DNA of 64,000 nt from Paracoccaceae bacterium (GTDB lineage: Bacteria; Pseudomonadota; Alphaproteobacteria; Rhodobacterales; Rhodobacteraceae). The translations under genes and the position numbers were made by a program. Of this stretch, positions 6,148 through 42,697 are shown in pieces; position 1 is the first letter of the stretch; the number at the start of each line of letters is the position of its first letter. The notes beneath the pieces are model-generated. The model was not told the origin of the DNA and did no database searches. It worked only from the letters and a program-made list of their open reading frames with translations. The stretch covers positions 1 to 64,000 of the forward strand of contig JADHOV010000005.1 of the NCBI GenBank assembly GCA_016778765.1, read 5' to 3'.

Positions 6148-9051
6148 ATGTGCGCCGAAACACCCGATTATAAAGAGACTTTGAACCTTCCAAAAACCAA
6201 TTTCCCTATGCGGGCTGGTTTGCCAAAACGCGAACCGGAATGGTTGCAAAAATGGGAAAACATGGGCCTCTACAATCGACTCAGGGAAAAGCAGGGCCGT
6301 AAACCCTTTACCCTCCACGATGGCCCACCTTATGCGAACGGGCATTTGCATATTGGCCATGCGCTCAACAAGATTTTAAAAGACATGGTTGTGCGCAGCC
6401 AACAAATGATGGGAAAAGATGCCCGCTATATCCCAGGTTGGGATTGTCACGGCTTGCCAATTGAATGGAAAATCGAGGAACAATATCGCAAAAATGGCCG
6501 CGATAAAGACACAGTGCCCGTGGTCGATTTCCGCCAAGAATGCCGCAAATTTGCTGCTGAATGGGTGGATGTTCAGCGCGCAGAATTCAAACGACTTGGG
6601 ATTACCGGCAATTGGGAAATGCCTTATTTAACCATGGATTATCATGCAGAACGCGTGATCGCAGAAGAATTCATGACGTTTCTGATGACGGGCACGCTGT
6701 ATCAAGGCTCAAAGCCGGTCATGTGGTCCCCCGTTGAAAAAACCGCATTGGCAGAGGCAGAAGTGGAATATCATGACAAAGAGAGCTTCACCATTTGGGT
6801 GCGTTTTCCGGTTCTAAACAGCGATAACTTAGCGCTAGAAGGCGCTGATGTGGTGATCTGGACCACCACGCCCTGGACCATCCCCTCAAACCGCGGTGTG
6901 GTCTATCACCAAGACATCTCTTATGGCGTTTATGAGGTGACAGCCGCCCCCGAAGACAATTGGGTCAAAACCGGCGATCGCGTTCTTCTGGCGGATAAAC
7001 AGGCAGCTTCGGTTCTGGAAAAGGCTCGAGTCGAAAGTTTTTCGCGCATCAGTGATGCGGGCGATTTATCAAATACAAGCCTGTCGCATCCATTGGCCGG
7101 TATGGAGGGCAGCAAGGGTGAATGGGATGAGCCGCGCGATTTTCGCGCCGCGCCCTTTGTGACCGAAGAGGATGGCACCGGATTTGTCCATTGTGCCCCC
7201 AGCCATGGTATGGATGAATTTGAGCTGTATCGCGATGCGGGCATGCTGGAGCAAGTGCTTACCTATAATGTAATGGAAGATGGCACGATGCGGGCCGATT
7301 TGCCGTTTTTCGGCGGCAAAAGAATTCTCAAGCCCAATGGCAAAGAAGGCAATGTGAATGCGGCGGTGATTGAGAAGCTGGCAGAAAGCGGAAAGCTTTT
7401 GGCGCGCGGAAAGATCAATCACAGTTATCCGCATAGCTGGCGCTCTAAAGCGCCTCTGGTCTATCGCAACACGCCGCAATGGTTCGCCGCAATCGATCGC
7501 CCGGTCGGCGATAATCAAGATAAATTCGGCAAAACCATTCGCGAACGGGCCCTGAATTCTATTGATAAAATGGTCGAATGGACGCCCAAAACGGGCCGAA
7601 ACCGGCTTTATTCAATGATCGAAGCCCGCCCCGATTGGGTGCTCTCGCGCCAACGCGCTTGGGGGGTTCCACTGACATGTTTCACCAAAACCGGCGGCAA
7701 ACCGACAGATCCGGATTTCTTGCTGCGCAACGGCGAAGTAAATGCCCGTATCGCCGCCGCATTTGAAAGCGAAGGCGCAGATGCGTGGTATGCTGAGGGC
7801 GCCAAAAACCGCTTCCTTGATGGTATTGTTGACCCAGAAGCTTATGAACAAGTTTTTGATATTCTTGATGTCTGGTTTGATTCTGGCTCAACGCATGCCT
7901 TTGTTTTGCGCGATCGCGATGATGGATCCCAAGACGGTATGGCTGATCTATATCTGGAAGGCACCGATCAGCATCGCGGCTGGTTCCATTCGTCGATGCT
8001 GCAATCCTGTGGCACCCGCGGCCATGCGCCGTATCGCGGAGTACTAACGCATGGCTTCACGCTCGATGAAAAAGGCATGAAAATGTCAAAATCTTTGGGC
8101 AATACGGTGGCACCCGAGCAAGTGGTAAAACAATATGGCGGCGATATTTTGCGCCTCTGGGTGGCGCAGTCAGATTATTCTGCGGATCTTAGAATTGGAC
8201 CTGAAATCTTAAAAAATACCGCCGATGCCTATCGCAGATTGCGCAATACGATGCGGTTTTTACTCGGCTCTCTGGCCGATTTTAGCGAACGCGACCGCAT
8301 CGCGCCGCAGGACATGCCCGAGCTCGAGCAATGGGTTTTGCACCGCTTGGCGGAATTGGATGAAAAGGTGCGCAGCGGCTATAATGCCTATGATTTCCAA
8401 GGCGTATTTCAAGCCGTTTTTGCCTTTGCAACCGTCGATCTGTCATCTTTTTATTTCGATATCCGCAAAGACGCGCTGTATTGCGATGGCGATACGGTCC
8501 AACGGCGCGCGGCGCGTACGGTGCTTGATATTCTGTTCCATCGGCTGACCACCTGGCTCGCCCCGGTGCTGGTCTTTACGATGGAAGAGGTCTGGCTTGA
8601 GCGGTTCCCCGGCGATGACAGCTCGGTTCACCTGCTGGATATTCCCGAGACCCCCGCGGCTTGGAGAAACCCAGAACTGGCGGAAAAATGGGCAATGATC
8701 CGCTCTGCACGCCGCGTGGTCACATCGGCTTTGGAAGTGCAACGCTCTGAAAAAGTTATTGGGGCCAGTTTGGAAGCCGCGCCAAGCGTCACCATCAGCG
8801 ATCCTGCGATGCTGGCGGCACTGCAATCTGTACCCTTTGAAGATATTTGCATAACATCGGCGCTGCAACTGACGGCAGGCCAGATAGAGCAGGGCCAGTT
8901 TACCCTTGCAGATCATCCTGGGATTGGCGTTGCCTTTTCCAAAGCAGAGGGTGAAAAGTGCCAGCGTTGCTGGAAAATTCTGCCTGATATCGGGAAAGAT
9001 CAGCATCTTGGCACCTGCCGGCGCTGCAGCACTGCTCTGAGCGCGGCTTAA
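6148..9051 (+). CDS. ileS: Isoleucyl-tRNA synthetase
   Basis: Charges tRNA-Ile with isoleucine in the cytoplasm. The 967-residue class I enzyme shows the HIGH-type motif (HLHIGH, about residues 66-71) and KMSKS at 645-649. Between them is the inserted CP1 editing domain ([11 protein letters not shown] region). The anticodon-binding domain follows, and the C-terminal zinc finger CQRCWK...CRRC is intact. The ATG at 6148 follows a purine-rich AAGGA. Its stop codon overlaps the stop of the convergent tadA in a shared TTAA, so neither gene has an intervening terminator. Confidence 0.97.
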
Positions 9052-25136: not shown

Positions 25137-25916
25137 CTAGACTGTCCGCTCAACCATCATCTTTTTAATTTCTGAGATCGCCTTAGCCGGGTTAAGCCCT
25201 TTGGGGCAGGTTTTGGCACAATTCATGATCGTATGACAGCGATAGAGCTTAAACGGATCTTCCAATTCATCCAACCGCTCGCCTGTAGCTTCATCGCGCG
25301 AATCAATGATCCAGCGATAGGCGTGCAGCAAGGCAGCTGGCCCCAAATAGCGATCGCCATTCCACCAGTAAGACGGGCAGGAGGTTGAGCAAGAGGCGCA
25401 CATCACGCATTCATACAGCCCATCCAGTTTTTTGCGATCTTCGATCGATTGCTTCCACTCTTTCGCCGGACGGTTGGTTTTGGTTTCCAGCCAAGGCATG
25501 ATGCTGGCATGCTGGGCATAAAAATGCGTTAGATCAGGGATCAAATCGCGAATAACGGGCATATGCGGCAAGGGATAGATCTTCACATCGCCCTTGATGT
25601 CATCCATGCCATAAATACAAGCCAGCGTGTTAATGCCATCGATATTCATCGCACAAGAGCCACAAATACCTTCCCGGCACGAGCGGCGAAAGGTCAAGGT
25701 GGGATCAATTTCGTTTTTGATTTTGATCAGCGCGTCCAAGACCATCGGGCCGCATCTATCCATATCCACGAAATAAGTATCAACGCTGGGGTTTTCTCCA
25801 TCATCTGGCGACCACCGATAGATGGAAAACTTGCGGATATTGGTTGCACCTGCTGGTTTTGGCCAGGTTTTTCCAGTGCGGATCCGTGAATTCTTAGGAA
25901 GCGTTAGCTGAACCAT
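25137..25916 (-). CDS. sdhB: Succinate dehydrogenase iron-sulfur subunit
   Basis: Electron-transfer subunit of complex II on the cytoplasmic face of the inner membrane. Of its 259 residues, the N-terminal ferredoxin domain carries the [2Fe-2S] Cys set in [12 protein letters not shown] with a distal Cys. The C-terminal domain carries [12 protein letters not shown] and [14 protein letters not shown] for the [4Fe-4S] and [3Fe-4S] clusters. Last gene of sdhCDAB, 49 bases after sdhA. Confidence 0.97.
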
Positions 25917-25965: not shown

Positions 25966-27771
25966 TCAAAATGTACGCACTTTAGGCGCGATTCTCTCAA
26001 GCGATATGCCACCCTGATCTTCATCCGTGAGGCGATCCAACACGACCGGCCGATAGCTCAGATCGCATTTGGCGCCGTCAATCACCGCCAATGTATGCAC
26101 CCGCCAAGCCGCATCATCTCGATCAGCAAAATCTTCATGGGCATGCGCGCCGCGGCTTTCTTTACGCGCCTCGGCGCCGGCGATGGTGGCCAAAGCGTTG
26201 GGCATTAGATTGCCCAATTCAAGCGTTTCCATAAGATCGCTATTCCACACGAGGCTGGTATCAGTCACTTTGATATCATCCATTTTTGCGGCGATTTCGG
26301 TCATTTTGCTGAGGCCGGCTGCCAATGTGTCCGAGGCGCGGAATACGGCCGCATCGGATTGCATGGTCTTTTGCATCTCAAGGCGCAGCTCAGCGGTTGG
26401 CACCGCGCCATTGGCATGACGTAACCCATCGAAACGGTCAAAGGCCTTATCAATTTCAGCAGCGTTCAAACTGGGGATCTGTGCGGCCCGATCGACAACC
26501 TGACCAGCCCGGATCGCGGCTGCGCGCCCAAACACGACTAGATCGATCAAAGAGTTTGAGCCAAGGCGGTTTGCGCCATGCACCGATGCGCAGCCTGCTT
26601 CACCCACAGCCATGAGCCCGGGCACCACTGCGTTTGGATTATCCGCCGTTGGGTTTAGAACTTCTCCCCAATAGTTGGTCGGAATTCCGCCCATATTATA
26701 GTGCACGGTGGGCAGAACAGGAATTGCTTCCTTGGTCACGTCAACACCGGCAAAAATCCGCGCGCTTTCCGAAATTCCGGGCAGGCGTTCGGCCAAAGCC
26801 TCGGGGGGTAAATGGCTCAAATTAAGGTGGATATGATCACCCTCTGCGCCAACGCCGCGCCCCTCACGGATTTCCATCGTCATACAGCGGCTGACGTAAT
26901 CGCGCGGCGCAAGATCTTTATAATGGGGTGCATAGCGCTCCATAAAACGCTCGCCCTCTGAATTGGTCAAATAGCCCCCTTCGCCGCGCGCGCCCTCGGT
27001 GATCAAGCACCCGGATCCATAAATGCCCGTCGGATGGAATTGTACGAATTCCATATCCTGCAGCGGCAAACCAGCCCGCGCCACCATGCCGCCACCATCC
27101 CCGGTACAGGTATGCGCAGAGGTTGCACTGAAATAAGCCCGCCCATAGCCACCCGTGGCCAAGACGACCATTTTAGCGTTGAAAACGTGCATCGTGCCAT
27201 CATCTAGCTTCCAGCAGACAACACCGGTGCACACCCCATCTTCAGACATAACCAAATCGATGGCAAAATATTCGATATAAAATTCAGCGTTATTCTTCAG
27301 CGATTGGCCATATAACGTGTGCAAAATCGCGTGGCCCGTTCGATCGGCTGCGGCGCAGGTACGCTGTACGGGAGGGCCTTCGCCAAACTCAGTAGTATGC
27401 CCGCCAAATGGCCGCTGATAAATTTTACCTTCTTTGGTGCGCGAAAATGGCACGCCATAATGCTCAAGCTCATAAACAGCTTTCGGCGCTTCGCGCGCCA
27501 GATATTCCATCGCGTCCGTATCACCAAGCCAATCGGATCCCTTGACGGTATCATACATGTGCCATTGCCAATGATCTGGACCCATATTTGAAAGCGAGGC
27601 CGCGATCCCGCCTTGCGCCGCAACCGTGTGAGAGCGGGTTGGAAACACTTTGGTGACGCAGGCGGTGCGCAACCCCTGCTCTGCCATGCCCAAAGTTGCC
27701 CGCAAGCCAGCGCCACCAGCGCCGACAACAACAACATCATATTCATGGGTTTCAAACGTATATTCTGACAT
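25966..27771 (-). CDS. sdhA: Succinate dehydrogenase flavoprotein subunit
   Basis: Catalytic subunit of complex II: oxidises succinate to fumarate with covalently bound FAD. The 601 residues include the FAD-binding [15 protein letters not shown] near residues 14-28, the [11 protein letters not shown] segment whose His carries the covalent flavin, [11 protein letters not shown], and the capping-domain catalytic Arg region. Normal length. Starts 12 bases after sdhD. Confidence 0.98.
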
Positions 27772-27783
27772 TGCTTTCGCCCT

Positions 27784-28155
27784 TTAAAGTGCCATCTTCG
27801 CGATCGCAAAAAGCCCTGTTGCCATCAAGGCATAGGACATACAAATCACCGCGATGATCCAGATCTTCTGTGCAGTCCCATGGACATAATCTTCAATTAA
27901 AACCTGCGCGCCCGACTTAAAATGCTCAAGACCAACGATCAGCGTCAGCGCCACAATCAAGGCAGGCCCGGGCCGGGTAAAATGCGCGATCACATCTTGA
28001 TGGCTTTCACCGATAACGCGCCCAAGCGTATAGACGAATAAGGGCACCAGCACCAAAAGCGCTGCAGAGCTCACTTTCATAGCCCAAAAATGCGCGGTGC
28101 CAGTTTTGGCGCTGCCCAGGCCCGTAGCACGTTTGCGATCCGTTAAATAACGCAT
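27784..28155 (-). CDS. sdhD: Succinate dehydrogenase membrane anchor subunit D
   Basis: A 123-residue protein with three predicted membrane helices. The HFKSGAQVLIEDYVH segment has the conserved pattern for the haem/quinone site of SdhD. Lies between sdhC (15 bases upstream) and sdhA (12 bases downstream), which fixes the identity despite low family conservation. Confidence 0.95.
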   Translation of the reverse strand: MRYLTDRKRATGLGSAKTGTAHFWAMKVSSAALLVLVPLFVYTLGRVIGESHQDVIAHFTRPGPALIVALTLIVGLEHFKSGAQVLIEDYVHGTAQKIWIIAVICMSYALMATGLFAIAKMAL

Positions 28156-28170: not shown

Positions 28171-28554
28171 CTATAAGACCATAACGGTGATGACGCTCAG
28201 CAGCAGCGAACCTATGATAACACCCCAGCCAAGTTTTTCGGCTGTCGGCACGTCCAAACCAATAGCGTTGTCCCAAATCAGATGCCGCAAACCGGCCAAG
28301 CTATGATACCACAGCGCCCAGATCGATCCCAATAGGATTAGCTTTCCAAACCACGAGGTTACAAACCCGTTGACCAGGTCAAAATAGGCTGGCGAAGTTG
28401 CCGCCGCCAATAACCACCAAATCACCAGAATAGTGCCCAGCAATAATGCGTTGCCCGTGATCCGTGTCAAGATTGACGTAATCGAGGTCAGCTGCGGGCG
28501 ATAGATTGATAAATGCGGTGACAAAGGGCGATTGCCCCGGTTTACATCAGCCAT
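28171..28554 (-). CDS. sdhC: Succinate dehydrogenase cytochrome b556 subunit
   Basis: A 127-residue membrane anchor with three hydrophobic helices. RPLSPHLSIYR at the N-terminus and the HSLAGLRHLIWD motif (haem-ligand His region) are diagnostic. First gene of sdhCDAB. The upstream 164-bp spacer ends at a tandem TGTGATCACA operator, and AAGGGAA lies before the ATG. Confidence 0.97.
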   Translation of the reverse strand: MADVNRGNRPLSPHLSIYRPQLTSITSILTRITGNALLLGTILVIWWLLAAATSPAYFDLVNGFVTSWFGKLILLGSIWALWYHSLAGLRHLIWDNAIGLDVPTAEKLGWGVIIGSLLLSVITVMVL

Positions 28555-28692
28555 TAAAATTCCCTTACGATCTTTTTAAAGCGAAGCCTCCACAGCCATT
28601 CGCCGATACGATAGGATTCTTTTATCTTGATTTGAAGGTAATAACAGCCCCAGAAACGATATTCTTTCCTGTCTCTTGACGAAATGCAATGT

Positions 28693-28723
28693 TGTGATCA
28701 CAGAGTTTTTATTTGTGATCACA
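28693..28723. promoter_or_regulatory. Tandem TGTGATCACA operator upstream of sdhC
   Basis: Two identical perfect 10-bp palindromes at 28693-28702 and 28714-28723, 21 bases apart (two helical turns). The distal copy overlaps the stop codon of the DUF4344 gene. The same pair with identical spacing precedes sucC. On the sdh strand a weak TTGCAT/AAGAAT promoter-like pair follows directly. Shape and spacing suggest cooperative binding of a dimeric regulator, perhaps of the GntR or CRP/FNR type. Confidence 0.75.
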
Positions 28724-29453
28724 TGTTTTCAAATTGCCGGCTTAAATAGGTTTCAAATTCTGCGCAAAGCGTCACCGAACCGGTTGCTGGATCGTAAAAT
28801 GCATTAGCCTCCTCGCAAGTTTCTATCAACAATGCAAAATCAAAAGGAAAGCCCAATTGCCCATTTAAAAAAGCGATTTCTTCGGCCACCACTTGGCCAA
28901 TCAAGCTTTCAACAGGGCCCTCAAATATTATTTTTCCTTTCAGGGCCAACATCTGATCCAGCACTCCTCCCCAACTTAGAATCGCCTGATCATATTCCTC
29001 GGGGCAGCTATCAGCGCGTTCTTCTGGCAACCCAAGATCCTCGGCAAAAAAGATCCGATCGGCTGGGTTGGCTCCATAGAACAAACAAATCAGATTATAA
29101 AACCGTTGTTCGTCAAGCCCATGCACCCCCCAAAACGCCAATTCTTCCGCCTGTTCTGCATCTGCTAAAAAACTGAGCGCGGCATCATAAGCAATATCTT
29201 GGGCCGGCTCTTCGTCATAAACTTGATCGATCATTAAAATGGATAAAACATCCGCTGCGTCTTCTTCTTGGCCAAAAATCGGCACCGACATCTTATCGAT
29301 AATTGCATGCCCCAATTCATGATAAAAAATGGACACAATGTTAGAGGATAAATAGGCGTCTCGCGCGTCGATCTTCTCCGCGTTTGACTGGCCAAAAGCA
29401 GGGAGCAACCCGCCCGCAAAAAGCACCATTAAAGCCAATAATCTGATCCGCAT
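28719..29453 (-). CDS. Exported DUF4344-type putative zinc metallopeptidase
   Basis: A 244-residue protein with a cleavable-looking signal peptide (MRIRLLALMVLFAGGLLPAFG) and the zinc-protease motif HELGHAIID shortly after it. An EEDAAD segment about 20 residues on may supply the third ligand. This matches DUF4344, whose members are predicted periplasmic metallopeptidases of unknown target. GGAGAGG lies just before the ATG at 29453; an upstream TTG at 29489 is less likely. Follows mch by 14 bases and probably ends the mcl2-mch operon. Why a secreted protease sits here is unknown. Confidence 0.78.
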   Translation of the reverse strand: MRIRLLALMVLFAGGLLPAFGQSNAEKIDARDAYLSSNIVSIFYHELGHAIIDKMSVPIFGQEEDAADVLSILMIDQVYDEEPAQDIAYDAALSFLADAEQAEELAFWGVHGLDEQRFYNLICLFYGANPADRIFFAEDLGLPEERADSCPEEYDQAILSWGGVLDQMLALKGKIIFEGPVESLIGQVVAEEIAFLNGQLGFPFDFALLIETCEEANAFYDPATGSVTLCAEFETYLSRQFENM

Positions 29454-29467
29454 CACCTCTCCTCTGG

Positions 29468-30502
29468 TTACGAGGGTATCAAGGCCCAATAATCCAAATC
29501 AAGAAGAATATGAGGAAGGTAGCGTTGGTCTTCCCCGCGCAGCGGCCCCGGTCCCGCTTGGTTTTTTTGCGCCACCAATCGCAAACGCATGGCACCAATA
29601 CCTGGCACGCGGGTTTGCGCTATGTCCAGCACTTCAGACCAAGCCGAAATGGTATCGCCTGCAAAACAAGGGTTGGCATGCGCGCCGCTATTCAAAGCGA
29701 CAATCATTTGCGCATTGGCCAGGCCATTAAAGGATAAAGCCCGCGCCAAAGAAATTACATGCCCGCCATAAATCAGGCGCTTGCCATCGGCGCGGCTGGT
29801 CACATCAAAATGCACTTTGGCAGTGTTTTGCCACAGCCGCGTTGCCATCATATGCTCGGCTTCTTCGATGGTGATTGCGTCAACATGATCAATCACTTCG
29901 CCGCGCTCATACGCAGACAAATGATATGGCTCTCCGGCAAGATCAAACGCATAATTGGAAAAATCCAGCCCCTCTGGAACGCAGAGATCTGCCGGATCTA
30001 CCGCCCCGGCCAATTCGGGCAGAACAGCCTGTGGCGCTGGCGAGCTGATCTGTCTTTTGCGCAGCATTGCCCAGCGCACAAATTCAAGAACGCTGTCGCC
30101 GTGCTGGTTTACCCCGCGCGTGCGCAGATAGACGATGCCGGTTTTTCCATTAGTGTTTTCTTTCAACCCGATGACTTCTGACACCGCCCGCACCGTATCA
30201 CCCGTGAAGATTGGGGCCAGCCACCGCCCTTCTGCATAACCCAAATTAGCCACGGCATTGAGTGAAATATCCGGTACAGTTTTGCCGAACACCATATGAA
30301 ACGCGGCCCAATCGTCTATAGGGGCGCGCGGCAAACCGCAATTTCGGGCGAATTCATCCGACGAATTCAATGCATGGCGCGCAGGATAAAGCGCATGATA
30401 AAGCGCACGCTCTCCCTCGGTAAGGGTGCGAGGAACAGCGTGCGCGATCACTTCGCCAAGTGAATAATCTTCAAAAAAACGCCCAATATTCGACTTGCTC
30501 AT
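29468..30502 (-). CDS. mch: Mesaconyl-C1-CoA hydratase (beta-methylmalyl-CoA dehydratase)
   Basis: Interconverts mesaconyl-C1-CoA and beta-methylmalyl-CoA in the ethylmalonyl-CoA pathway. The 344-residue protein is a fused double hot-dog MaoC-type hydratase. FFEDYSLGEVIAHAVPRTLTEGE begins the first half, with PIFTGDTVRA in it. The second half contains GGHVISLARALSFNGLAN and ANPCFAGDTISAWSEV. The gene lies next to DUF1737 and nnrU with mcl2 two genes upstream. From memory the same order occurs in R. sphaeroides around RSP_0970-0973. Confidence 0.92.
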   Translation of the reverse strand: MSKSNIGRFFEDYSLGEVIAHAVPRTLTEGERALYHALYPARHALNSSDEFARNCGLPRAPIDDWAAFHMVFGKTVPDISLNAVANLGYAEGRWLAPIFTGDTVRAVSEVIGLKENTNGKTGIVYLRTRGVNQHGDSVLEFVRWAMLRKRQISSPAPQAVLPELAGAVDPADLCVPEGLDFSNYAFDLAGEPYHLSAYERGEVIDHVDAITIEEAEHMMATRLWQNTAKVHFDVTSRADGKRLIYGGHVISLARALSFNGLANAQMIVALNSGAHANPCFAGDTISAWSEVLDIAQTRVPGIGAMRLRLVAQKNQAGPGPLRGEDQRYLPHILLDLDYWALIPS

Positions 30503-33173: not shown

Positions 33174-34172
<999 letters not shown>

Positions 34173-34224: not shown

Positions 34225-34258
34225 AAAAAAGCCCGCATGCACGCATGCGGGCTTTTTT
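34225..34258. terminator. Strong bidirectional-looking intrinsic terminator after mdh
   Basis: A6, then GCCCGCATG and CATGCGGGC paired around a CACG loop (34231-34252), then T6. A textbook rho-independent terminator for mdh. The 333-bp mdh-sucC spacer otherwise contains only the tandem operator at 34370-34400 and AT-rich leader sequence. Confidence 0.9.
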
Positions 34259-34369
34259 ATTTTCAGCAAGAGAACCATCTTTTATCCCAATAAATGGGGC
34301 GCCGAGGGCAAGCATGAAGCCACCATCCACAGGAGCAACCTTTCTCAAACACTCGTCAAATTTTATTTT

Positions 34370-34400
34370 GTGATCACACCTATAAAATCTGTGATCACAA
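34370..34400. promoter_or_regulatory. Tandem TGTGATCACA operator upstream of sucC
   Basis: Perfect palindromes at 34370-34379 and 34391-34400, again 21 bases apart with an 11-base AT-rich spacer that includes TATAAAAT. They end 105 bases before the sucC ATG. Identical in motif and spacing to the pair before sdhC. The promoter could overlap the spacer, which would suit a repressor, or lie downstream, which would suit an activator. Confidence 0.75.
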
Positions 34401-34505
34401 AGCATTAAAAAACGTAAAAATCGATAAAAGTTTTCAAAAAATGCTTATAACCGCCGGCTCGATGCGACTAAATGGCGCAAACTTTGAGTCATGTAGGAAC
34501 ACTCG

Positions 34506-35699
34506 ATGAATATTCATGAATATCAAGCGAAAACCTTGTTGCGCAGCTATGGCGCCCCGGTGTCAGAAGGGCGCTTTGTGCTCAAGGCAGACGATGCAAA
34601 AACGGCTGCGGGTGAACTGGATGGGCCTCTTTGGGTTGTCAAAGCGCAAATTCACGCTGGTGGCCGCGGCAAAGGCCACTTCACAGAAGCTGATGCGGGC
34701 GAAAAAGGCGGCGTTCGCATGGCCAAATCGGCCACCGAAGCGGCAGAAGAAGCCAAAAAAATGCTTGGTCGCACCTTGGTCACCCACCAAACCGGCCCCG
34801 CCGGCAAACAGGTCAACCGCATCTATATCGAAGATGGTTCAAGCATCAAGCGTGAGCTTTATCTGGCCCTATTGGTCGATCGTCAAACCAGTCGCGTGTC
34901 TTTCGTTTGCTCGACGGAGGGTGGCATGGACATTGAAGAGGTTGCAGCCGACACGCCCGAAAAAATTCTGTCTTTTTCGGTTGACCCAGCCACTGGATAT
35001 AAAGCCTATCATGGCCGTAGAATTGCTTTCATGCTGAAGCTAGAGGGCAAACAAATCAAAAAATGCGTGGCCTTAATGGGCACACTTTATCGCCTGTTTA
35101 TCGAAAAAGACGTCGAGATGCTGGAAATCAATCCTCTGATTTTGACCGATGGCGGCGATCTGAAATGTTTAGATGCAAAAATGGGGTTCGACGGCAATGC
35201 CGTCTACCGTCACCCTGATATCGCCGAGCTCAGAGATACTACCGAAGAAGACCCCAAAGAACTCGAAGCTTCAAAATACGATCTGAATTATATCGCCTTG
35301 GACGGCGAAATTGGCTGCATGGTCAACGGCGCAGGCCTTGCGATGGCGACGATGGATATTATCAAACTTTATGGCGCAGAACCGGCAAATTTCTTAGATG
35401 TTGGTGGCGGGGCAACCAAAGAAAAAGTTACAGAAGCCTTCAAAATCATCACCTCAGATCCAAATGTAAAAGGCATTTTGGTCAATATTTTTGGGGGTAT
35501 TATGCGTTGTGATGTGATCGCCGAAGGGGTAGTGGCCGCGGTAAAGGAAGTAGGCTTGAAAGTGCCTCTGGTGGTGCGGTTGGAAGGCACCAATGTCGAA
35601 CAAGGCAAAAAGATCATCAACACATCAGGATTGGATGTGATTGCAGCCGATAATCTTAAGGACGGCGCCGAAAAAATTGTAAAGGCGGTCAAGGGGTAA
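34506..35699 (+). CDS. sucC: Succinyl-CoA synthetase (ADP-forming) beta subunit
   Basis: With SucD converts succinyl-CoA to succinate while making ATP/GTP. The 397-residue ATP-grasp protein begins [16 protein letters not shown] and has the nucleotide-binding [15 protein letters not shown] carries metal-binding residues and [10 protein letters not shown] is in the C-terminal ligase domain. First gene of sucCD-sucAB-lpd, with AGGAA near the start and sucD three bases after the stop. Confidence 0.97.
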
Positions 35700-35702
35700 G
35701 AC

Positions 35703-36584
35703 ATGGCAATTCTCATAAACGAAAATACCAAAGTGATCTGTCAAGGGTTTACCGGCTCGCAAGGCAGCTTTCATTCCGAGCAAGCCATCGCATATGGCAC
35801 CAAAATGGTTGGCGGCGTTACGCCCGGAAAAGGCGGCCAAGTGCATCTTGATTTGCCTGTGTTCAATTCGGTGCATGAGGCCAAAGCCGTCACCCAAGCA
35901 AATGCCACGGTGATTTATGTCCCTCCGCCCTTTGCTGCAGACAGTCTTTTAGAGGCACTGGATGCCGAAATTGAACTGATAGTTTGTATCACAGAAGGCA
36001 TCCCTGTGTTGGATATGATGCAAGTAAAGCGGGCTTTAGAGACCAGTAATTCCGTGCTGATTGGCCCAAATTGCCCCGGTGTGATCACGCCTGATGCTTG
36101 TAAAATTGGCATCATGCCGGGGCATATCCACCGCCGTGGATCTGTCGGGGTCGTGTCGCGCTCGGGCACATTAACCTATGAAGCGGTCAAGCAAACATCG
36201 GATGTTGGGCTGGGACAATCCACCTGCGTGGGCATCGGCGGGGATCCTATCAAAGGCACCGAACATATCGATGTGCTTGAATGGTTCTTGGCCGATGAGG
36301 AAACGCAGTCAATCATTATGATTGGTGAAATTGGCGGCAGCGCCGAAGAAGAAGCCGCCCAATTTCTAAAAGATGAGGCCAAACGCGGGCGCAGCAAACC
36401 CGTGGCCGGCTTTATCGCCGGACGCACAGCCCCTCCGGGCCGCCGCATGGGCCATGCCGGTGCCATTGTTGCAGGTGGCAAAGGTGGTGCAGAAGATAAA
36501 ATTGAAGCCATGCAAGCCGCGGGCATCGTGGTTGCTGAAAGCCCAGCCGGATTGGGTGAAGCGGTTCTTAAAGCCATCGGGTAA
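35703..36584 (+). CDS. sucD: Succinyl-CoA synthetase alpha subunit
   Basis: The 293-residue CoA-binding, phosphohistidine-bearing subunit. The N-terminal Rossmann domain contains [15 protein letters not shown], followed by GPNCPGVI. The catalytic His251 lies in GHAGAI near the C-terminus, the residue that is phosphorylated during the reaction. Tight spacing to sucC; a 178-bp gap follows before sucA and may hold a further promoter. Confidence 0.97.
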
Positions 36585-36762
36585 CGTTTAATGCGCCATA
36601 TCAGCAAAAATATCAGGGCTAAATTGCCTTGTCTCACCCCGCGCAATAGGCAGGGCAAAGCTCCCTATCCACAAGGCTTGACGCAGCCATTTTTGACGCC
36701 ACCCCATTCCAAAACACCCTTGATAAGCGCCCCTTACTTTGAACATCTTAAGAGGATCTAAC

Positions 36763-39726
36763 ATGACCGATCAGTCTGCGAATGAACAGTTTCACGCCTC
36801 TTCCTTCATGCAGGGGCATAACGCGGCCTATCTTGAGCAACTCTACGCGCAATATGCCCATGACCCCAATACAGTTGATAGCGCCTGGCAAGCCTTCTTT
36901 CAGGCGTTGGGGGATGCGGATTTAGACGTGAAAGCAGACGCTTCTGGCCCGTCTTGGGCCCGCAAAGATTGGCCCCCTCAACCCACTGATGATCTAACCG
37001 CCGCCCTCACTGGTGAATGGATGCCGCCGCCGCAAGAGGCCGCAGCGGCCAAGGAAAAAATCCTTGGAAAGGCCAAAGAGCTCGACAGTACGGTCAGCCA
37101 AGAGGCTGTGAAACGCGCGGTTTTAGACAGTATCCGCGCCTTGATGATCATTCGAGCCCACCGCATCCGTGGGCATTTATCCGCAGATCTGGATCCTTTG
37201 AAACTTCAAGTCACCGGACAGCACCTTGAGTTACAGCCAAAATCTTATGGTTTTGAAGAAGCCGATATGGATCGGCCAATCTTTATTGATAATGTGCTTG
37301 GCTTGCAATTTGCCAGCATGCGCCAAATCATCGATATTCTGCAACGCACCTATTGCAGCACGTTTGCTTTGCAATACATGCATATTTCGGACCCCGAGCA
37401 ATCCTCATGGCTTAAAGAACGTATCGAGGGGCGCGATAAAGAAATCACATTCACCCGTGAGGGGCGCAAAGCAATCTTGAATAAGATGGTTGAAGCCGAA
37501 GGGTTTGAGAAATTTCTGCACGTCAAATACACCGGCACCAAACGCTTTGGCTTGGATGGCGGAGAAAGCCTGATCCCCGCGCTAGAGCAAATCATCAAGC
37601 GTGGTGGCGCGCTTGGGGTGCGCGATATTGTGATCGGCATGCCGCATCGCGGCCGCCTTTCTGTATTGGCAAATGTGATGCAAAAACCGTATCGGGCGAT
37701 TTTCAACGAATTTCAGGGCGGGTCATTCAAGCCAGAAGATGTAGACGGCTCTGGCGATGTGAAATATCATCTCGGCGCATCCTCCGACCGTGAATTTGAC
37801 GGCAATAACGTGCATCTGTCACTCACCGCAAACCCCAGCCATTTAGAGGCTGTTAACCCGGTTGTAATTGGCAAAGTGCGCGCCAAACAAGATCAAATTG
37901 GCGATGCGGATCGCACGCAGGTTTTGCCCTTATTACTGCATGGCGATGCGGCCTTTGCCGGCCAAGGTGTTGTGGCGGAATGTTTTGGGCTGTCTGGATT
38001 GGTGGGCCATCGCACGGGCGGAACAATCCATGTTGTGGTCAATAACCAGATTGGATTTACCACGGCGCCTCATTTTAGCCGCTCATCGCCCTATCCGACC
38101 GACATCGCCTTAATGGTAGAAGCCCCAATATTCCACGTGAATGGAGATGATCCAGAAGCCGTTGTGCATGCAGCCAAAGTGGCCACGGAATTCCGCCAGA
38201 AATTCCAAAAAGACGTGGTGATCGACATCTTCTGCTACCGCCGGTTTGGGCATAATGAGGGGGATGAACCGATGTTCACAAACCCCTTAATGTATAATCA
38301 AATCAAACGACAAAAGACCACGCTTTCGCTTTACACCGAACGGCTGGTCAAGGATGGGCTGATACCCGAAGGCGAAATTGAAGATATGAAAGCTGCCTTC
38401 CAAGCCAAAATGAACGAAGAATTTGAAGCCGGAAAAGACTATAAACCCAATAAGGCCGATTGGCTGGATGGCCGCTGGTCGCATTTGGATCGCCGCGGAG
38501 AGGAATATCAGCGCGGAGAAACATCAATTTCTGCCCAAACGCTGGCAGATATTGGCACTGCCTTGAGCCGCGTGCCAGATGGGTTTCCGCTTCATAAAAC
38601 CGTCGCACGAATGCTTGAGAGCAAAAAGAAAATGTTCGCCGCCGGCGAAGGCTTCGATTGGGCCACCGGCGAAGCCTTGGCCTTTGGGTCCCTATTATGC
38701 GAGGGCTTTCCGGTGCGTTTGTCCGGCCAAGACTGTACCCGCGGCACGTTCAGCCAACGCCATTCTGGCTTGATCAATCAGGATACTGAAGAGCGCTATT
38801 ACCCGCTCAATCATATTCGCGCCGGACAAAAGCGCTATGATGTGATCGATTCGATGCTGTCCGAATATGCCGTTCTTGGGTTTGAGTATGGCTATTCGCT
38901 GGCCGAGCCCAACGCTCTTACGCTTTGGGAAGCCCAATTCGGTGATTTTGCAAATGGCGCGCAAATCATGTTTGATCAATTCATCAGTTCTGGTGAAAGC
39001 AAATGGTTGCGCATGTCCGGTCTGGTGGTGTTGCTTCCCCATGGATTCGAGGGGCAAGGACCAGAACACAGCTCTGCGCGCCTCGAACGGTTTTTGCAAA
39101 TGTGCGGGCAGGACAATTGGATCATAGCCAATTGCACCACGCCCGCCAATTATTTTCATATTTTGCGCCGCCAATTGCACCGGAACTTTCGCAAACCATT
39201 GATTCTGATGACGCCAAAATCGTTGCTGCGACATAAATTAGCCGTCTCAAAAGCTGAAGATTTCACCACCGGCTCGTCTTTTCATCGGGTTCTATGGGAT
39301 GATGCGGAAGCCAGCACCTCGGCGCATAAGCTTAAACCAGATGCCAAAATCAAACGCGTCGTGATGTGCTCGGGCAAAGTTTATTATGATCTTTTAGAAG
39401 AACGAAATGCCCGCGGTCTCGATGATATTTACCTGATGCGCTTTGAGCAATTCTATCCGTTTCCGGCCATCTCAGCATTGAAGGAACTTCAGCGCTTTGA
39501 AAATGCCGAAATGATTTGGTGTCAGGAGGAACCTAAGAACCAGGGCGGCTGGAGCTTCATGGAGCCCAATTTGGAATGGGTGCTCGAACGCATGAAAGCC
39601 AAACATAACCGTCTTCGCTATGTGGGCCGCTCGGCCAGCGCCTCACCGGCCACTGGTTTAGCCGCACAACATAAATTCCAACAAGCCGCGCTAATCGATG
39701 AAGCGCTGACGATCGAAGGGAAATAA
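36763..39726 (+). CDS. sucA: 2-oxoglutarate dehydrogenase E1 component
   Basis: Thiamine-diphosphate-dependent decarboxylation of 2-oxoglutarate and transfer to the lipoyl arm of SucB. The 987 residues show the N-terminal E2-binding segment (SFMQGHNAAYLEQLYAQY), IGMPHRGRLSVLANV, RRFGHNEGDEP with metal/ThDP ligands, and a transketolase-like C-terminal domain. ATG 36763 with AGAGGA six bases upstream is clearly better than the in-frame TTG 36739. sucB starts three bases after the stop. Confidence 0.97.
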   Translation: MTDQSANEQFHASSFMQGHNAAYLEQLYAQYAHDPNTVDSAWQAFFQALGDADLDVKADASGPSWARKDWPPQPTDDLTAALTGEWMPPPQEAAAAKEKILGKAKELDSTVSQEAVKRAVLDSIRALMIIRAHRIRGHLSADLDPLKLQVTGQHLELQPKSYGFEEADMDRPIFIDNVLGLQFASMRQIIDILQRTYCSTFALQYMHISDPEQSSWLKERIEGRDKEITFTREGRKAILNKMVEAEGFEKFLHVKYTGTKRFGLDGGESLIPALEQIIKRGGALGVRDIVIGMPHRGRLSVLANVMQKPYRAIFNEFQGGSFKPEDVDGSGDVKYHLGASSDREFDGNNVHLSLTANPSHLEAVNPVVIGKVRAKQDQIGDADRTQVLPLLLHGDAAFAGQGVVAECFGLSGLVGHRTGGTIHVVVNNQIGFTTAPHFSRSSPYPTDIALMVEAPIFHVNGDDPEAVVHAAKVATEFRQKFQKDVVIDIFCYRRFGHNEGDEPMFTNPLMYNQIKRQKTTLSLYTERLVKDGLIPEGEIEDMKAAFQAKMNEEFEAGKDYKPNKADWLDGRWSHLDRRGEEYQRGETSISAQTLADIGTALSRVPDGFPLHKTVARMLESKKKMFAAGEGFDWATGEALAFGSLLCEGFPVRLSGQDCTRGTFSQRHSGLINQDTEERYYPLNHIRAGQKRYDVIDSMLSEYAVLGFEYGYSLAEPNALTLWEAQFGDFANGAQIMFDQFISSGESKWLRMSGLVVLLPHGFEGQGPEHSSARLERFLQMCGQDNWIIANCTTPANYFHILRRQLHRNFRKPLILMTPKSLLRHKLAVSKAEDFTTGSSFHRVLWDDAEASTSAHKLKPDAKIKRVVMCSGKVYYDLLEERNARGLDDIYLMRFEQFYPFPAISALKELQRFENAEMIWCQEEPKNQGGWSFMEPNLEWVLERMKAKHNRLRYVGRSASASPATGLAAQHKFQQAALIDEALTIEGK

Positions 39727-39729
39727 CCA

Positions 39730-41244
39730 ATGACAACGGAAATTCGCGTCCCGACTTTGGGCGAATCTGTCACAGAAGCGACGGTGGCCACCTGGTTTAA
39801 AAAACCGGGCGATGCTGTGGCTTTGGACGAAATGCTATGCGAGTTAGAAACCGATAAAGTCACCGTCGAAGTGCCAAGCCCGGCCGCAGGCGTTCTCAGC
39901 GATATCGTTGCAGCAGAAGGCATAACCGTCGGAGTTGATGCTTTGCTGGCCAATATTGCCAGCGGCGCGGGCAATGCCGAGGCTTCGGATGCCGCCAAAA
40001 CCCCAGCCCCTAAAGCGCCGTCAAACGCGGCAGCAGACTCATCTGATATTGAGGTTGCCGTACCAACTTTGGGGGAAAGCGTGACCGAAGCCACCGTGGC
40101 CAGCTGGTTCAAAGCGCCAGGCGACAGCGTTAAAAGCGATGAGATCCTATGCGAACTGGAAACGGATAAGGTCAGCGTGGAAGTTCCATCGCCAAGCGCA
40201 GGGGTTTTGAAAAAAATCATCGCAGCGGAAGGCAGCACAGTGGATGCAACCGCCATTTTGGCCGTGATCGGCAAAGTAGAGGAGGAAGGCAACGCGCCCG
40301 CCGCGCAGCCCATTCCAGAGGCCGCTTCAAGCACGGCCAAAGCCAGCTCGGTGGAAGACGCGCCAGCCGCAAAAAAAGCCATGGCCGAGGCGGGTCTTAA
40401 ACCCGGCACGGTGCAAGGCACCGGCCGCGATGGCCGTGTAATGAAAGAAGATGTAACACGGGCTGTTGCCGCCGCCGCGCAAGCCCCAATCACAACCGTT
40501 CAAACACCAGCCGCGCCGCGCGCCCCCGTTATGGCCAGTGATGCAGCGCGTGAAGAGCGGGTGAAAATGACGCGCTTGCGTCAAACTATTGCGCGGCGCT
40601 TAAAAGACAGCCAGAACTCAGCCGCCATGCTGACAACGTATAACGAAGTCGACATGAGCGCCGTAATGGATCTAAGATCAGAATATAAAGATCTGTTCTT
40701 AAAGAAGCATGGCGTCAAACTTGGCTTCATGTCTTTCTTCACCAAAGCCTGCTGCCATGCTTTGCAAGAGGTTCCCGAAGTCAATGCCGAAATAGATGGC
40801 ACCGATATCGTTTATAAGAACTTTGTCCATATGGGCATCGCGGCTGGCACGCCAACCGGCTTGGTTGTGCCCGTGATTCGGGATGTTGATGCGATGAGCT
40901 TTGCCGCCATCGAGCAAGCGATCAGCGAAAAGGGGCAGCGCGCTCGCGACGGCAAGCTGAGCATGGAAGAAATGCAAGGCGGCACTTTCACCATTTCCAA
41001 TGGCGGGGTTTATGGCTCATTAATGTCCTCTCCCATTTTGAACCCCCCGCAATCGGGGATCCTCGGCATGCATAAAATCCAAGACCGCCCCATCGCTGTG
41101 AATGGCCAAGTGGTAATCCGGCCGATGATGTATCTGGCCCTCAGCTATGACCACCGGATCGTGGATGGTAAAGGCGCCGTAACCTTCTTAGTCCGCGTCA
41201 AAGAAGCGCTTGAAGATCCCCGGCGCTTGCTGATGGATCTTTAG
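39730..41244 (+). CDS. sucB: Dihydrolipoyllysine succinyltransferase (E2) with two lipoyl domains
   Basis: Core of the 2-oxoglutarate dehydrogenase complex. The 504-residue chain has two very similar lipoyl domains (about 2-77 and 107-182) with lipoylated Lys43 and Lys147 in ETDKV, where the E. coli enzyme has one. An Ala/Pro-rich linker follows, then the E3-binding domain ([11 protein letters not shown]...GRDGRV) and the catalytic domain with His475 and Asp479 in SYDHRIVDG. Two lipoyl domains are, as I recall, usual in Rhodobacteraceae. lpd follows after 64 bases. Confidence 0.97.
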
Positions 41245-41308: not shown

Positions 41309-42697
41309 ATGGCGAGCTATGATGTAATTGTGATTGGCAGCGGGCCCGGAGGCTATGTTGCGGCGATCAGATGCGCTCAACTGGGGCTTAAAACAGCCTG
41401 TGTCGAGGGCCGAGAAACCTTGGGCGGCACCTGCCTTAACGTCGGCTGTATTCCGTCCAAAGCGCTGCTGCACGCCTCACATATGCTTCATGAAGCCGAA
41501 CATAATTTTGCAAAAATGGGCCTCAATGCCAAATCGCCAACGGTAGATTGGTCGCAGATGCAGACCCATAAAGCCGACACGATCGAAGGCAACACCAAAG
41601 GTATTGAATTTCTTTTCAAGAAGAACAAAATCGACTGGCTGAAAGGCTGGGGCAGCATTCCCGAGGCCGGTGTGGTCAAAGTGGGCAATGAACGGCATCA
41701 GGCGAAAAATATTATTATTGCCAGCGGTTCCACGCCCTCCAGCCTGCCCGGCATAGAGATCGATGAAAAAACCGTGGTCAGCTCAACCGGGGCCTTAAGC
41801 TTGGCCAAGATTCCCAAAAAACTCGTGGTGATCGGTGCGGGGGTGATTGGCTTAGAGCTTGGATCGGTTTACGCGCGGCTCGGCAGTGATGTGACCGTGG
41901 TAGAGTTTTTAAACGCGATCACACCGGGAATGGACGCTGAGGTTCAAAAAACCTTTCAGCGCATTCTGAAAAAGCAGGGCTTGAAATTCATCATGGGCGC
42001 AGCTGTAAGCAGCGTTGAAAAGCTTAAAACCAAAGCCAAAGTTAACTATACTTTGCGCAAAGATGACAGCGCGCACCAGATAGACGCAGATACGGTCTTG
42101 GTGGCAACGGGGCGAAAGCCGTTTACGGATGGGTTGGGCTTGGCCGATCTTGGGATAGAGGTCAGCGAGCGCGGTCAGATCAAAACCGATTCACATTGGC
42201 AAACCAATATTTCCGGCATCTATGCAATTGGTGATGCGATTGATGGACCAATGCTGGCTCACAAAGCCGAGGATGAGGGTATGGCCGCGGCCGAAGTAAT
42301 CGCCGGCAAGCATGGGCATGTGAATTATGATGTGATCCCAGGCGTGATCTATACGCATCCTGAAGTTGCCAATGTGGGCCAAACCGAGGCACAGCTGAAA
42401 GAACAGGGCCGCGCTTATAAAGTTGGAAAGTTCAACTTTATGGGCAATGGCCGGGCCAAGGCGAATTTTGCCGGAGACGGCTTTGTCAAATTATTGGCCG
42501 ATGCGCAAACCGACCGCATCTTGGGCGCGCATATTATAGGGCCCTCGGCCGGAGATTTAATACATGAAATCTGCGTTGCGATGGAATTTGGCGCATCCGC
42601 CGAAGATTTGGCCTTAATCTGCCACGCCCATCCCACATATTCAGAAGCGGTGCGCGAGGCCGCTCTGGCATGCGGCGATGGCGCCATTCACGCCTAA
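41309..42697 (+). CDS. lpd: Dihydrolipoyl dehydrogenase (E3)
   Basis: Reoxidises dihydrolipoamide of the 2-oxoglutarate (and perhaps pyruvate) dehydrogenase complex with NAD. The 462 residues include the FAD-binding [13 protein letters not shown] near residues 8-20, the redox disulfide [13 protein letters not shown] (Cys42, Cys47), a second Rossmann [11 protein letters not shown] for NAD, and the catalytic His-Glu region HAHPTYSEA near the C-terminus. GAAAGGA precedes the ATG. Last gene of the unit; an intrinsic terminator starts about 80 bases after the stop. Confidence 0.97.

Follow-up and report, generated by a model that had tools for sequence, protein, structure and literature searches.

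The identical tandem palindromes in front of the succinate-CoA ligase and succinate dehydrogenase genes of this locus raise the question whether they are operators of one shared TCA-cycle regulator, as the initial annotation had proposed, and which protein this regulator would be. A scan of the whole 64,000-nucleotide stretch that was analysed (the window) revealed exactly four perfect copies of TGTGATCACA, all of them in pairs, in agreement with the initial annotation, which had noticed no further perfect intergenic copy. The two copies of each pair lie 21 bp apart from start to start, with 11-bp spacers (GAGTTTTTATT and CCTATAAAATC), as first described; the coordinates originally given for the sdhC pair were exact, while those for the sucC pair were one base too high (34370/34391 instead of 34369/34390). 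With up to one mismatch to TGTGATCACA, seven sites were found in the window versus 1.15 expected, and none of 100 dinucleotide shuffles reached seven.

Each pair is located upstream of its own gene. The first consists of a candidate distal operator (site 1, positions 34369–34378, plus strand) and a candidate proximal operator (site 2, 34390–34399, plus strand) of the sucCD-sucAB-lpd cluster and lies 106 bp before the ATG of sucC at 34506. Downstream on the plus strand follow sucC (34506–35699, succinate-CoA ligase beta subunit, NCBIfam NF001913, E 3e-177) and, in the same operon, the second target sucD (35703–36584), named from its sequence and position. Reading of the open reading frames identified sucA (36739–39726, 2-oxoglutarate dehydrogenase E1), sucB (39730–41244, E2 component) and lpd (41309–42697, dihydrolipoamide dehydrogenase), all on the plus strand; these three genes carry no pair of their own and come after sucCD in the same direction, sucA probably on the same transcript. 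The upstream neighbour is the open reading frame of mdh (33210–34172, plus strand, malate dehydrogenase), a reference gene in our locus comparisons. Between mdh and the pair, a perfect GC-rich terminator-like hairpin (GCCCGCATGC-AC-GCATGCGGGC with a T-run; 34231–34252, plus strand) was read directly from the sequence.

The second pair, on the minus strand, consists of the candidate distal (site 1, 28714–28723) and proximal (site 2, 28693–28702) operators of the sdhCDAB operon and lies 138 bp before the ATG of sdhC at 28554. The targets, all on the minus strand, are sdhC (28171–28554, succinate dehydrogenase cytochrome b556 subunit, TIGR02970, E 7e-37) and, from their open reading frames, sdhD (27784–28155), sdhA (25966–27771) and sdhB (25137–25916). 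The distal sdhC operator overlaps the 3' end of the preceding open reading frame (28719–29489, minus strand, metallopeptidase-like by eye), and part of the operator therefore doubles as the stop codon region of that frame. A single one-mismatch copy, TGTGATCACG, within sucD (36080–36089) is probably due to chance.

Occurrence and conservation of the pair

The genome (2.74 Mb, 87 contigs, 97.5% complete) was scanned for further pairs. Rather than being scattered over unrelated sites, the pair was found only before sdhC and sucC, both as an exact match and with up to three mismatches over its 20 positions; the reversed pattern, searched with the same tolerance, gave no pair. Seven perfect 10-mers are present in the genome: the four in the pairs, two inside genes for a sugar-binding protein and a phosphate-type permease, which were set aside as probable chance occurrences, and one before a GntR/FCD gene. 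Among single genomic sites with up to one mismatch to TTGTGATCACAA, no convincing further TCA target was found.

The arrangement is kept across the family Rhodobacteraceae, before sdhC as well as sucC. In a sample of 296 family genomes, each from a different genus, 188 carried a perfect pair with a spacer of 9–13 bp and none carried the reversed pattern. All 30 loci fetched first had the pair before sucC or sdhC, and with further loci this held for 56 of 56, of which 51 had an 11-bp and five a 10-bp spacer. A wider scan covering one genome per species (84,980 GTDB species genomes) yielded at least 123 pairs in at least 119 stretches. Among the 123 pairs listed, 118 were located before sucC or sdhC and one before sucA; three lie at the edge of a contig or stretch, next to genes of this cluster, which leaves a single outlier. 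This outlier, a perfect pair with a 10-bp spacer at position 6444 of Brachybacterium timonense (Actinomycetota), has no reference gene nearby. A class-wide sample of 385 genomes contained just two pairs outside the family, with 12-bp spacers and unrelated neighbour genes. In near-perfect pairs, read by eye, the usual change is a T-to-C or A-to-G replacement at the outermost position, which gives the consensus YGTGATCACR with the core GTGATCAC.

The initial annotation had considered a chance duplication very unlikely. Nothing was found in favour of a chance duplication or of a structural repeat without a regulator, and with conservation confined to the pair, two gene targets and reversed-pattern controls of zero, this explanation is vanishingly improbable.

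A GntR/FCD regulator gene and its relation to the pair

The initial annotation had stated that the regulator is absent from the window and had named a GntR-type or CRP/FNR-type protein as candidates. Proteins of the FNR and CRP type are regulators of TCA genes in other bacteria, and TGTGA and TCACA are also the half-sites of CRP. However, a CRP site reads TGTGA-N6-TCACA and an FNR site TTGAT-N4-ATCAA, whereas in the 10-bp palindrome TGTGATCACA the halves TGTGA and TCACA abut, without the 6-bp or 4-bp gap. This geometry excludes the CRP/FNR guess; the conserved core, in which changes are mostly limited to the outer base, and a palindrome copy at a GntR gene also speak against it, and binding by a protein of this family is regarded as highly improbable.

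The GntR-type guess was borne out by a gene on another contig of the same genome (C59:1344–1994), which encodes a 216-residue protein with GntR (Pfam PF00392, E 3.5e-13) and FCD (PF07729, E 1e-16) domains, both over the cut-off. The fifth non-coding perfect copy of TGTGATCACA lies in its upstream region (C59:1327–1336) and ends 7 bp before its ATG, so that a regulator gene with its own copy, the check originally proposed, was indeed found. Its neighbours are a ygjP-like gene and accA, the latter named from sequence. Several relatives have the regulator gene within the TCA cluster, beyond sucA. On C59 it is located outside this cluster, yet beside the ygjP-like gene as in the relatives with a cluster-located gene; it seems that both genes relocate as a unit.

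Of the 30 closest orthologues that were retrieved, 27 are directly preceded by a perfect copy, and the sites of the remaining three differ by one or two outer-base changes (CGTGATCACA, TGTGATCACG, CGTGATCACG); as these 30 are the best-scoring ones, the family-wide share with an own upstream site may be lower. No such site was present within two mismatches before the regulator gene of Rhodobacter sphaeroides and none was found in one further relative, and autoregulation is therefore not universal.

In the regulator itself, FCD residues 137–168 (NLEFHRTLYLRAQAPAMLA..ETVWLQLGPTM) are nearly invariant in 39 orthologues. Metal-binding members of the FCD subgroup use an Asp and three His as ligands. 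In the same orthologues, the putative metal-ligand places, read by eye, are occupied by N137, H141, H184 and D206. The occupation of usual ligand places by N137 and D206 suggests that the ligand pocket may be unusual.

The co-occurrence of regulator and pair was determined in 149 family genomes, 133 of which have a clear orthologue (E<1e-50). A perfect pair was found in 93 of these 133 genomes versus one of the 16 others (p 9e-7), and a pair with up to three mismatches in 130 of 133 versus three of 16 (Fisher p 1.8e-13), where the p-values overstate independence because the genomes are related. The genomes with a pair and no detected orthologue are G096 (77% complete) and G114 (fragmented), with one to two mismatches, and G019, with a perfect pair.

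The pairs might instead be bound by another GntR/FCD paralogue encoded in this genome: 14 GntR-domain matches are present, a second, weaker homologue was detected at E<=1e-20, and GTGATCAC also serves related GntR proteins elsewhere (PMC6365646). Yet the C59 gene is the only one to carry a perfect palindrome at the gene start. By co-occurrence, its orthologue is linked to the pair, and this orthologue is located in or beside the TCA cluster of R. sphaeroides and of several further relatives, all of which makes a paralogue an improbable binder.

The C59 protein has a counterpart in a predicted regulon. In R. sphaeroides, the GntR family protein RSP_0981 was predicted to regulate RSP_0967-6, RSP_0974-6 and RSP_0965-62, corresponding to sucCD, sdh and sucAB-lpd (PMC4344238), and a further paper gives GTGATCAC as a motif of AkgR of this species, which it calls an activator (PMC6365646). 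The genome used for comparison, taken as R. sphaeroides (Cereibacter sphaeroides) 2.4.1 (4.6 Mb), contains a perfect sdhC pair and a sucC pair with one outer mismatch, both with 21-bp spacing; perfect 10-mers number three in all, at sucC and sdhC. The orthologue of the C59 protein (73% identity over 214 residues, the sole match there at E<=1e-20) is flanked by sdhB and ygjP, the place expected for RSP_0981. AkgR and RSP_0981 are presumably the same protein, as this gene order makes likely. Judged by titles, no relevant paper was retrieved when the literature was searched for the exact 10-mer; the primary AkgR paper is Imam et al. 2015 (mBio).

The proposal of one shared TCA-cycle regulator is thus upheld by the uniqueness of the pairs in the genome, their conservation, a regulator with its own site and the co-occurrence of both. 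Judged from sequence comparison, it is almost certain that the pairs are bound by one regulator of a known kind, AkgR/RSP_0981. We consider it very probable that both serve as tandem operators of the C59 GntR/FCD orthologue of this protein, through which the sdh and suc genes would be co-activated.

Proposed mode of action and phased A/T blocks

In this organism, two dimers of the C59 regulator would probably occupy neighbouring sites on the same face of the helix, at a distance of two helical turns; we infer that they bind cooperatively, which the near-fixed spacing of 21 bp (sometimes 20 bp) fits. Bound there, ahead of the promoters of sdhC and sucC, the dimers would co-activate the genes for succinate dehydrogenase and for succinyl-CoA ligase/2-oxoglutarate dehydrogenase, possibly in response to a 2-oxoglutarate-related signal. 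The single copy at the start of the regulator gene would probably serve autorepression.

In most relatives, a -35-like GTGAC is located 88–90 bases after the start of the sdhC pair, and a TATCAA/TATTGA-like -10 element, read by eye, about 16 bases past it. Judged from these elements, the centre of the proximal site would lie near -97. At sucC, a weaker conserved TT at 77–78 and A/T at 102–103 suggest a centre at about -87, one turn less than at sdhC, again as a putative position. The GTGAC element is absent from the sdhC region of the window itself, where the promoter is uncertain. Many GntR/FCD proteins are repressors, and the single site near the regulator's own start codon would suit repression of sdh and suc as well. 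Against this, a considerable distance separates the pairs from the inferred promoters downstream, as the sdhC position in relatives illustrates, and this agrees with activation. Together with the published description of AkgR as an activator (PMC6365646), it makes repression unlikely.

The DNA between pair and inferred promoter showed a further conserved property. In relatives, the stretch corresponding to positions 34400–34451 (plus strand) at sucC contains A/T blocks every ~9.5 bp that are phase-locked to the pair, and the family profile aligned on the pair has A/T peaks near 40, 51, 61 and 70, downstream of the proximal site. For 87 sucC sequences, none identical to those in which the pattern was first noticed, the power was 1.03 at the best period of 9.5 bp, while 2000 rotations gave at most 0.10; for the sequence upstream of the pair the value was only 0.05 (null maximum 0.04). 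The null, a rotation of each row, keeps the composition of each sequence and not the relatedness among sequences; it replaced a column-permutation null, which was dropped as too easy. The corresponding sdhC stretch (28641–28692, minus strand) has a periodicity of ~10 bp in the family profile and is less regular in this genome; 32 sdhC sequences, a set that includes sequences seen earlier, gave a power of 0.77 at 10.25 bp versus a null maximum of 0.35.

When the sequences were aligned on the ATG instead of the pair, the power dropped to 0.14 for both sucC and sdhC. Apart from the inverse agreement at half a turn, the A/T profiles of sucC and sdhC agreed best at shift zero (r 0.64). In ten sequences with a 10-bp spacer, the blocks kept register with site 2 (r 0.87) more closely than with site 1 (r 0.60). 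Relative to the inferred promoters, the blocks lie near -43, -53, -63, -73 and -83, the register familiar from work on the RNA polymerase alpha-CTD. The blocks could represent a conserved pre-bent DNA track or stacked alpha-CTD contacts that connect a GntR activator pair far upstream with the promoter, a tentative interpretation to which we give slightly less than even chances; both variants would give the same pattern. As periodic A/T patterns ahead of bacterial promoters are generally known, only the strict phase-locking to the operator pair would be new. It offers a specific, testable idea of how a distant GntR activator works.

Comparison with known systems

The proposed assignment would place the lower TCA cycle of Rhodobacteraceae, a family abundant in marine waters, under a single regulator whose operator is almost exclusive to it: R. 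sphaeroides has three perfect copies in all and this genome seven. A regulon as small and clean as this lends itself to tests of how a GntR activator acts from a distance upstream.

Several known systems resemble the one described here to different degrees. The regulon of McbR (YncC) of E. coli is a different one, concerned with biofilm and colanic acid. This protein shares the GntR/FCD architecture and is, by sequence, the closest solved structure (PDB 4p9f, E 4.6e-18). PS417_07240, the regulator of a deoxyribonate cluster in Pseudomonas simiae, was reported to be 32% identical to AkgR; it is likewise GntR-like, with the GTGATCAC palindrome proposed as the operator before its own gene, but has a single site and targets in sugar-acid catabolism (PMC6365646). 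The AkgR/RSP_0981 regulon of R. sphaeroides has in common the GntR regulator, the GTGATCAC palindrome, sucCD and sdh as targets and the 21-bp pairs. Unlike in R. sphaeroides, where the regulator gene lies beside sdhB and lacks an own operator, it is here located on another contig beside ygjP and accA and carries one. The pairs and their regulator are thus a new member of a known regulon already predicted in R. sphaeroides; the novel elements are the operator of the regulator gene itself and the location of this gene in the present genome, the quantified family-wide exclusivity of the pair and the phased A/T blocks.
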